A stretch of 64,000 bases of DNA, taken from positions 3,534,001-3,598,000 of the forward strand of contig NZ_CP098455.1 of NCBI RefSeq assembly GCF_023702635.1, in the 5' to 3' direction. The notes beneath the pieces are model-generated. The model ran no database searches. It saw nothing but the letters and a program-made list of their open reading frames with translations, and had not been told where the DNA came from. The stretch's first letter is position 1, and each line of letters starts with the position of its first letter. Source of the DNA: Spongiibacter taiwanensis (GTDB lineage Bacteria; Pseudomonadota; Gammaproteobacteria; Pseudomonadales; Spongiibacteraceae). This document shows positions 37,096-38,656 of the stretch, one piece after another. Made by a program: the position numbers and the translations under genes.

Positions 37096-37260
37096 GCCGC
37101 CCGTTTTCAAAGACATGCAAGTGTTTGTCTTTATTCCAAAAGCTCTGTGAGAGGGGATGGAAAAAGCGAGCCGTGCAGGGTCAGCGGGCGTCACCATTTG
37201 CAAGGTTGATTTTCTTGCCTTTCGCGCAGGTGATTGGCGCAACGCAGAAAAAATTGTTTC

Positions 37261-37353
37261 GGAGAGGTGGCCGAGTGGCTGAAGGCGCTCCCCTGCTAAG
37301 GGAGTATGGGGTTTGTAGCCTCATCGGGGGTTCGAATCCCCCCTTCTCCGCCA
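37261..37353 (+). tRNA. tRNA-Ser (GCT anticodon)
   Basis: Class II tRNA with a long variable arm. Acceptor strand GGAGAGG pairs with CTTCTCC at the end (one G-U). The anticodon stem CTCCC/GGGAG encloses loop CTGCTAA with anticodon GCT at 37295-37297. The T loop is GTTCGAATC, the variable arm is about 20 bases, and CCA is encoded at 37351-37353. A strong terminator follows. Confidence 0.97.
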
Positions 37354-37360
37354 TTAAATA

Positions 37361-37393
37361 AAAAAGCCCCGGTCGTCAGACCGGGGCTTTTTT
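37361..37393 (+). terminator. rho-independent terminator after tRNA-Ser
   Basis: AAAAAGCCCCGGTC and its exact reverse complement form a 14-bp stem around GTCA. The right side ends in a T-run, directly after the tRNA. Confidence 0.95.
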
Positions 37394-37438
37394 ATTTAAC
37401 CGTGAGTAAGGGTGTGTGGACGAACCCCCCGGTTCGAC

Positions 37439-37596
37439 AAAACGCGCCAGCGTTTTAGACATGACGTTGTCAGTCCTGCCCGAAGGGGCGAAACAGGCCA
37501 CAGCCTGTTTCGATCACAAAACGCGCCAGCGTTTTGAACGCCAGAGCGCAGCGGCGGCGCCCCGGAGGGGTCGAAACGGCCTCAAGCCGTTTCGAT
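37439..37596. repeat. two tandem copies of a 76-79 base hairpin unit with covarying stems
   Basis: Copy 1 (37439-37514) and copy 2 (37518-37596) each start with the same 18-base hairpin AAAACGC-GCCA-GCGTTTT and end with a second hairpin followed by GAT. The second hairpin is GAAACAGGC-CACA-GCCTGTTTC in copy 1 and GAAACGGC-CTCAA-GCCGTTTC in copy 2: the stem bases differ but pairing is kept. A short C-run/G-run hairpin sits between them in both copies (around GCCCGAAGGGGC and CCCCGGAGGGG). A further hairpin CGAACC-CCCC-GGTTCG precedes the pair at 37421-37436. No credible protein is encoded in 37394-37666. Confidence 0.85.
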
Positions 37597-37666
37597 TAAT
37601 CCCTTTGTTAGCATTACATGGTTTCGCACGAAAGCAGGGTGTGGCAGTGCGCCCGCCCGGGCCTTA

Positions 37667-38656
37667 TTACTCCCCCAGATCCCGCAGAATATTGACCTTC
37701 ATTTGCCGAAGCACCTGAACAGCGTGGTGCAATTCTTGGTTGCGAATACCGGTCAGGACAAAGTCTTCGGCTTGGCTAGCCGTATCGCCCACGGACCGGA
37801 GCAGGGCGTTGCCGGGTTTGGCCAGAAACACCCTATTTGAGCGCGCATCCTGAGGATCGGGAATGCGTGCTACCAGATGGTTTTCCTCCAGTTTGACCAG
37901 TAGCGACCCCGCTGCCGCACGACTCATATTCAAAGCTTTGGCCAGATGGCTTTGGGTCATGCCGTCTTGCTCGGCGAGGTAGCTCAGCAGGGCCCATTGG
38001 GCTCGAGACAGGCCAATGGGAAGCAGCAGCCGGTCGATAATGATCTGGCGCATCCGGGAGACGTGGTCGGTGAGGAAGCCAATCTTGTTCAATGCAAAGT
38101 GCTGGTGAAACGACTGAACACGCTGGGAAATCTTGGTAGCTGTTTTGCTGCTGCGTTGACCGATGTGTTTCTTGTGCATATTGCGATCTGCCGCCAGCAA
38201 TACGTCGGCGCCGGCACGCAGGTCGATTTCCGTCAGGCCGGCGCAATTGATCTCAGCGAGGGCGTCCTCGATTCCCGTGGCCTGTTGCAGCAAAGTCGCA
38301 GCGCTGGGGGTGAGGTTGAGTCGCAATGCGCGTTGGTCATCCGGGCAGTGATGGCGACGCAGTAAGGCAGCGGCTTCCATTTTGTGAACCAGTTTGCCCA
38401 GACTTGCCTTGGTGGTACCGATGATGGCCGCTAACTCCGATTGGTTAAGACCGGGGTTCTCGTTATTCATGCGAGCGAGATTTTTCAGTGTCCACCACTG
38501 GGCGCGGCTGATCCCCAGGGGGCTTAAGGCCCGGTCAAACTGGGTTCGCTGTAAGCGGGCTACGCTGTGCACAAGAACGTGAAACTCCGCACCTTCGCCC
38601 GTACGCTCTTTGGGCCTAACGGATGGCGAGGAGCGATGGTTTTCGGCGGTAGACAA
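37667..38656 (-). CDS. tandem double-MarR transcriptional regulator
   Basis: A 329-residue protein made of two MarR winged-helix units in one chain. Unit 1 is at about 22-165 (GISRAQWWTLKNLAR, LNQSELAAIIGTTKASLGKLVHKMEA, RRHHCPDDQRALRLNLT). Unit 2 is at about 190-325 (GLSRAQWALLSYLAE, MTQSHLAKALNMSRAAAGSLLVKLEE, PDPQDARSNRVFLA). MarR proteins normally work as dimers of one such unit, so this is a covalent pseudo-dimer whose halves have diverged. The start is TTG 38656, with GGAGG nine bases upstream; no in-frame ATG precedes the first HTH. It is divergent from the thioesterase gene, a possible target. Confidence 0.88.
   Translation of the reverse strand: MSTAENHRSSPSVRPKERTGEGAEFHVLVHSVARLQRTQFDRALSPLGISRAQWWTLKNLARMNNENPGLNQSELAAIIGTTKASLGKLVHKMEAAALLRRHHCPDDQRALRLNLTPSAATLLQQATGIEDALAEINCAGLTEIDLRAGADVLLAADRNMHKKHIGQRSSKTATKISQRVQSFHQHFALNKIGFLTDHVSRMRQIIIDRLLLPIGLSRAQWALLSYLAEQDGMTQSHLAKALNMSRAAAGSLLVKLEENHLVARIPDPQDARSNRVFLAKPGNALLRSVGDTASQAEDFVLTGIRNQELHHAVQVLRQMKVNILRDLGE

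Follow-up and report, generated by a model that had tools for sequence, protein, structure and literature searches.

Hairpin modules in the T-loop of a partial tRNA copy behind tRNA-Ser of Spongiibacter taiwanensis resemble the E. coli tyrT repeats in plan

Behind a tRNA-Ser gene of Spongiibacter taiwanensis two similar hairpin units stand back to back, and the locus raises the question of what these units are and how they come to lie beside a tRNA gene. We analyzed the surrounding window of 64,000 nucleotides (positions 3534001–3598000 of the complete 3.71 Mb genome). The initial annotation had described two adjacent copies of a hairpin unit with an identical first hairpin and a last hairpin whose stem is altered on both sides while its pairing remains intact, and all of these features are present (Table 1). 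The first hairpin, AAAACGC-GCCA-GCGTTTT, is the same 18 nt in both modules; with up to 3 mismatches allowed, it was found 2 times in the window compared to 0.02 times expected from shuffles. The last hairpin is completely paired in module 1 (GAAACAGGC-caca-GCCTGTTTC) as well as in module 2 (CGAAACGGC-ctcaa-GCCGTTTCG). The three hairpins described per unit exist in the order given, although a further small hairpin in each unit had been overlooked (CCCGAAGGG in unit 1, CCCCGGAGGGG in unit 2). Module 1 is laid out as C, first hairpin, AGAC, hairpin H2, small hairpin, last hairpin, and GATCA. Module 2 begins right after this GATCA end, head to tail, and reads C, first hairpin, GAAC, H2, small hairpin, last hairpin, and ATTA. 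The stretch holding the pair folds better than 200 of 200 shuffles on either strand (z of −5.5 and −4.8).

Table 1 Features of the array behind tRNA-Ser, in window positions. R1 and R2 are covariance models with and without flanks; both were built with the window copies, so that the bit scores of the modules are those of training members.
Feature	Position	Strand	Basis
tRNA-Ser (GCT), intact, host gene of the array	37261–37353	+	ARAGORN; Rfam tRNA 57.7 bits
Intrinsic terminator of tRNA-Ser, GCCCCGGTC-GTCA-GACCGGGGC and T run	37366–37393	+	sequence
Degenerate inverted copy of the tRNA-Ser 3' part (acceptor and T-stem)	37394–37429	−	82% over 34 nt, terminator counted in
GGTTCGA, T-loop left half, left break point	37431–37437	+	sequence; direct match to host tRNA
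Hairpin module 1, 79 nt	37438–37516	+	R1 84.9 bits, R2 72.2 bits
Hairpin module 2, 82 nt	37517–37598	+	R1 75.8 bits, R2 84.5 bits
ATCCC, T-loop right half and beginning of the T-stem 3' strand	37599–37603	+	sequence

The pair interrupts the T-loop of a tRNA: GGTTCGA is followed by the two back-to-back modules and these by ATCC. This break point was overlooked in the initial annotation, as was the likeness to the E. coli tyrT repeats discussed below. A longer inverted repeat is centred on the terminator of tRNA-Ser; its arms (37341–37374 and 37379–37412, 82% complementary) extend into the 3' end of the tRNA gene, and CGAACCCCC within the inverted copy is an exact 9-nt complement of the host T-arm. 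What had been taken for a third hairpin ahead of the pair, CGAACC..GGTTCG, does exist; it is the junction of the inverted T-arm copy with the direct GGTTCGA. The T-loop break point and the inverted tRNA copy explain the observed hairpin pair. The left flank resembles the host tRNA more than any other of 16 tRNA types, with 0 of 100 shuffles equal (row L087), whereas the right flank failed the same test and the remainder of the tRNA 3' copy beyond ATCCC is unrecognisable in the window. A convergent ORF (37667–38656, minus strand, 329 aa) resembles by eye two MarR-type domains in one chain.

BLAST of the unit identified two further places in the genome (E below 1e-9), at tRNA-Ser GGA and tRNA-Met, both downstream of a tRNA gene with a terminator. 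The genome has 41 tRNA matches, and reading 38 distinct tRNA-downstream stretches in addition to the window's own (stretches alike in their first 60 nt taken once) added a module at tRNA-Arg CCG and a shortened form at tRNA-Gln. R1, built from 15 copies (alignment A3) with stems from RNAalifold and one more set by hand, gave eight matches in the 3.7 Mb at E ≤ 1e-4, seven of them at tRNAs, and R2 found the same eight places at E ≤ 0.01. The six best R1 matches (E ≤ 2.1e-14) belong to tRNA-Ser GCT (two), tRNA-Ser GGA (two), tRNA-Met, and tRNA-Arg CCG; the weak ones are a second copy at tRNA-Arg (E 9.7e-5) and a match at 1663791 (E 2.1e-5) with no tRNA within the 7 kb read. The latter (genome 1663791–1663872, minus strand; L135 3792–3873) is a weak module after a terminator-like hairpin, about 4.4 kb past a tRNA-Ala/Ile pair and perhaps behind an rRNA operon. 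The Ser-GGA locus has a double back-to-back arrangement like that of the window, and as in the window its left flank passes the host comparison and its right flank fails it. At tRNA-Leu GAG (L059 48–562, genome 2815047–2815561), three tandem 146-bp copies were detected by TRF; their unit repeats the 3' end of the tRNA (TCGGCACCA) and also has a terminator-like hairpin, and its hairpins differ from those of the Ser, Met, and Arg units.

A common plan emerged at related loci. Near a tRNA, the intact gene is mostly followed by a terminator; next come a degenerate inverted copy of the gene's 3' part and GGTTCRA, and behind the module stands a right tail of ATCC and the host tRNA's own 3' strand, which at many loci is complete to CCA. 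Modules are mostly 70–90 nt long, start with C/T-AAA, and end in ATCA or similar, and in tandem arrays the whole unit is repeated every ~160–200 bp. For the statistics we used 146 modules in fetched loci (116 of one set and 30 of the 42 of another), among which at least L107/L140 and L106/L147 each represent one place counted twice; the 12 excluded rows are mostly loci already represented, plus the weak row L136 and the non-tRNA copy L135. A same-strand tRNA ends within 1 kb upstream in 117 of the 146 rows and within 150 bp in 89, and the hosts span 16 anticodons in the loci analyzed. Most of the other 29 rows were read: some lie at contig ends, some are displaced units that retain a tRNA 3' fragment, others lie within tRNA copies, and the rest are unclear. 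Of the 89 close loci, the host tRNA matched better than every other of 16 types at 52 for the right flank and at 49 for the inverted left flank, compared to ~5.6 expected if all tRNA types were equal; the comparison failed at 37 and 40 loci, respectively, including the right flanks of the window and of Ser-GGA. At 57 of the 89 loci, the left flank outscored no fewer than 99 of 100 shuffles. The T-loop of the inverted copy reads GAGAA at 41 loci, the expected TTCGAA at 5, and neither at 43. In genome G208, the inverted repeat is near-perfect, with arms of ~42 bases and the terminator at its centre.

The break point itself is largely uniform. With the flank-free model R2, GGTT(C/T)RA stands directly before the module in 89 of 100 matches, a share biased upward since the source loci had been fetched by flank-bearing queries. 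Sorted by eye, the other 11 comprise two modules in a D-loop, four behind another module, three with degenerate T-like flanks, one on the other strand of a module, and one unexplained case (L219). A strict DNA pattern run over named genomes returned at least 118 stretches, and a tRNA lies within 600 bp upstream in 103 of 145 matches among those listed. Among the listed matches lacking such a tRNA, many interrupt the T-loop of a tRNA copy whose 5' half is preserved. When modules were excised in silico (8 matches at record ends were left out), ARAGORN recovered a tRNA in 12 of 37 listed matches without an upstream tRNA, compared to 1 of 101 listed matches with one and 0 of 130 in another set. 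Nine of the 12 restored tRNAs use the module's own right flank; for L241 and L310 the tail of the next tRNA was used, and L221 gave an undefined tRNA. An intact tRNA follows within 700 nt downstream in 19 of these 37 listed matches, and at L229 one and the same tRNA-Ser is preceded by an interrupted copy and followed by a unit.

Other loops are used as well, with D-loop modules recognized by eye at L210, L286, L134, and L196 and an anticodon-loop module at L226. At L134 (5211–5303) and L196 (minus strand, 330–417 after reversal), the modules lie in the D-loop of a tRNA-Ser 5' copy; the neighbours at L134 are by eye alaS/lysC-like, as in the window. At L210 (minus strand, ~7896 after reversal), one tRNA-Ser copy apparently bears modules in both its D-loop and its T-loop.

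The initial annotation had suggested selection on pairing, and covariation supports this strongly. In 113 distinct copies aligned to the covariance model, 92.8% of stem cells are paired, both-sided changes number 460 compared to 102 in shuffles, and the covariation score is 0.499 compared to 0.123 in shuffles, with slid controls far lower. This alignment was fitted to the model; a MAFFT alignment of 15 copies agrees with it (36 both-sided changes compared to 10.7). G-U pairs are scarce in the module stems (1.4%). We rejected this scarcity as proof of DNA-level selection, since the acceptor stems of 65 tRNAs from these loci are similarly low (1.8%; T-stems 4.9%); on this measure DNA-level and RNA-level selection cannot be separated. 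The conserved unpaired motifs, a GAC linker and a GNA loop, fit an RNA equally.

The initial annotation had also proposed a covariance-model search of relatives, and besides the eight places in the window genome, R1 matched 118 of 293 genomes of the order, from 50 of its 118 genera (E ≤ 0.01). In a sample across the phylum, 36 of 299 genomes matched at E ≤ 1e-4. Of the 36, 22 belong to classes other than that of the window, with a single family contributing 21, and in two of three such loci read an intact tRNA precedes the unit. The strict pattern matches listed include Woeseiaceae, Nevskiales, Chromatiales, Spongiibacteraceae, Serratia, Photorhabdus, Dickeya, and Buttiauxella, together with a few alphaproteobacterial records. 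Nearest relatives were determined for 113 modules from 88 genome-by-tRNA loci in 49 genomes: they lay at the same tRNA in another genome in 47 cases (10.0 expected), at another tRNA in the same genome in 16 (1.7 expected), and at neither in 50 (101.3 expected). By these counts, units are inherited in place and are sometimes copied or converted between tRNA genes; the window unit is closest to the Ser-GGA unit of its own genome. The suspected spread of a palindromic family is thus partly supported, in that copies occur at other tRNA genes here and by the hundreds in relatives, with some copying between tRNA loci.

To our knowledge, the tyrT repeat of E. coli has so far been treated as a one-locus curiosity. 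In E. coli K-12, the tyrT/tyrV repeats (RttR/RtT, tpr; RF00391) read GGATGAGAAGC..GGTTCGA, hairpins, AATCC..CCA, and R1 finds them with 18.6 bits (E 2.6e-5 in 2.8 kb). As in the modules described here, the unit runs from T-loop to T-loop, has a GGTTCGA left flank, an AATCC..CCA tail copying the host tRNA, and an inverted T-arm with changed loop (GGATGAGAA), contains a hairpin array with CCCGAAGGGCGA, and occurs in tandem copies. In contrast, its first and last hairpins differ from those of the family here, no intrinsic terminator is evident by eye between tRNA and unit, unlike at most of our loci, and the units here are found at 16 anticodons. The window unit fits the RtT plan in position and inverted copy; its right tail is just ATCCC, while many relatives have the full tail.

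The Rfam model of this repeat captures part of the range. At gathering score, the tRNA was the sole Rfam match in the window, and of 64 rows for the region at E ≤ 10, tRNA alone exceeded its cut-off; RF00391 (gathering cut-off 45 bits) matched neither window positions 37240–37680 at E ≤ 10 nor the loci L018, L019, and L041 of the same genome at E ≤ 0.05. Copies of a genus-mate (L081) scored 36.9 and 35.2 bits, below the cut-off, two Photorhabdus loci lie over it, and one Serratia locus lies under it. Within the order, RF00391 matched 43 of 293 genomes at E ≤ 0.01, 20 of them over the cut-off and the window genome not among them; 34 of the 43 also match R1. A BLAST search for distant matches of the unit in E. 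coli genomes found none, so that the link to E. coli is based on architecture and the covariance model. Given the shared plan and the failure of the Rfam model to reach the window copy, we conclude from these sequences that the window units represent a variant of the tyrT-repeat kind and not an RF00391 member by score. This kind of repeat is old, little-studied, and far wider than its Rfam model shows. A table entry in PMC2658671, which deals with Salmonella serovars, gives a 175-bp repeat-number difference in rtT RNA, and tRNA gene fragments are among the matters treated in PMC9897764. Titles and abstract openings in the open literature revealed no paper on a tRNA-loop hairpin family.

Our preferred reading, to which we assign a probability of roughly 0.6, is that the modules are a tRNA-borne, non-autonomous hairpin repeat that inserts into tRNA loops and shares its plan with the E. 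coli tyrT repeats. Modules occupy a loop of a tRNA arm, in nearly all cases the T-loop between GGTTCRA and ATCC and sometimes the D- or anticodon loop. The copy that bears the module is redundant, mostly a partial 3' copy behind the intact gene and its terminator, after an inverted copy, and in other lineages an upstream copy retaining its 5' half. A module can also stand directly after the end of another, which probably gave rise to the window pair. That loops are interrupted at a uniform point, that no target duplication is obvious, and that modules stand right behind the ATCA ends of other modules suggests insertion of a folded strand, and a putative recombination or transposition activity on tRNA stem-loops might use the folded single strand of the module; unequal exchange could then multiply whole units into arrays. 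Counting against an insertion element, the Y1 comparison yielded no mobilising enzyme, no insertion was observed within any one species, the host comparison of the flanks failed at many loci, and one copy of the window genome lies away from any tRNA.

The main rival of an inserting repeat is that the modules encode a structured small RNA like RtT RNA, made from read-through tRNA transcripts or from the minus strand, with selection acting on the RNA fold. We regard this as an improbable but serious alternative. The E. coli K-12 annotation places the RttR ncRNA and tpr inside the same kind of repeat, RF00391 matches relatives, and both the strong covariation with its conserved loops and the G-U rate, which resembles that of tRNA acceptor stems, would suit an RNA. 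Yet a simple test placed a terminator-like hairpin between the tRNA and the module at 73 of 89 loci, the window included, and there the separation of array and tRNA transcription claimed in the initial annotation holds. The transcription context is not shared either, since modules of other lineages interrupt upstream tRNA copies, and in two genus-mates (L064, L084) the module at tRNA-Ser GCT retains its first hairpin but is otherwise different. The same terminator, which together with the inverted repeat belongs to many units, could instead make the whole an oversized bidirectional terminator or insulator that was duplicated along with the tRNA end, and in the window the MarR-like ORF converges on the array. 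This is quite unlikely, however, since copies upstream of or inside tRNA genes cannot insulate a 3' end, 16 of the 89 loci scored without a terminator (the simple test misses a few), and in E. coli none is evident.

Class II (T-loop) tRNA sites are used by tyrosine-integrase islands, and several of the host tRNA types are known island targets. The modules could accordingly be leftover ends of islands whose integrases cross in the T-loop and duplicate tRNA 3' ends; the T-loop break point and the restored tRNA 3' end are shared with such sites, copies within one genome are separated by 43.5 kb (L143/L144), 2.5 kb, and 1.5 kb, and an ORF that by eye is integrase-like adjoins the module at L145. 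However, the typical unit of ~160–200 bp has no gene of its own in sight, even if some copies are near larger inserts, and the att site of a single integrase would not account for one type of module that occurs at 16 anticodons, in D-loops, and after other modules. The inverted tRNA copy is left unexplained, and most displaced copies read (e.g. L131, L132, L144, L145) keep a tRNA 3' fragment and terminator before the module, as if units had moved ready-made. We thus hold an island origin unlikely. Least probable is a REP/BIME-type family mobilised by a RAYT (Y1) transposase, a behaviour that the initial annotation had considered. It would agree with short, dispersed, non-coding palindromes under pairing constraint, with the conserved linker of GGAC/AGAC type, with the lack of an obvious target duplication, and with the one Y1 gene of the genome. 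On the other hand, the modules are bound to tRNA loops and number just eight in 3.7 Mb, and the genus genomes G002, G004, and G006 have 5, 9, and 10 copies without a Y1 match at E ≤ 0.001. Co-occurrence of Y1 and modules over 293 genomes is weak (p = 0.05), with Y1 absent from 39 of 118 module genomes, and inspection by eye of 1.4 kb around the Y1 gene revealed no module. We therefore rejected Y1/RAYT as mobiliser, as it is not required. Identity with integron attC sites is unlikely as well, since attC forms one long imperfect hairpin with R and L boxes and the modules hold several separate ones.

If the modules do insert into tRNA loops, one may go further and tentatively picture widespread non-coding mobile hairpins in gammaproteobacteria and some relatives, which would enter T-, D-, and anticodon loops by recognizing stem-loops in single-stranded DNA or RNA and of which the E. 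coli tyrT repeats, already described decades ago, would be one fossil; the host would survive since it always retains one intact copy of the tRNA. The tyrT repeat now stands beside a family at many tRNA genes, and the defined T-loop break point, host-specific flanks, and strong covariation of this family make the origin of the tyrT repeat testable. It can now be asked what activity places hairpins in tRNA loops and why duplicated tRNA ends persist, and the family may show how hairpin repeats live at essential genes. Annotators should be aware that interrupted tRNA copies occur. As further observations, L143 and L144 (G233 C6), which have matching hairpin units, may be the two sides of a large island behind tRNA-Ser GGA. 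The Rfam family AaHKsRNA22 (Aggregatibacter sRNA 22) scored 33.0 bits over module 2 (37508–37610, plus strand; cut-off 39.8) and 38.7 bits on L170, and AaHKsRNA22 might be another member of the hairpin family.
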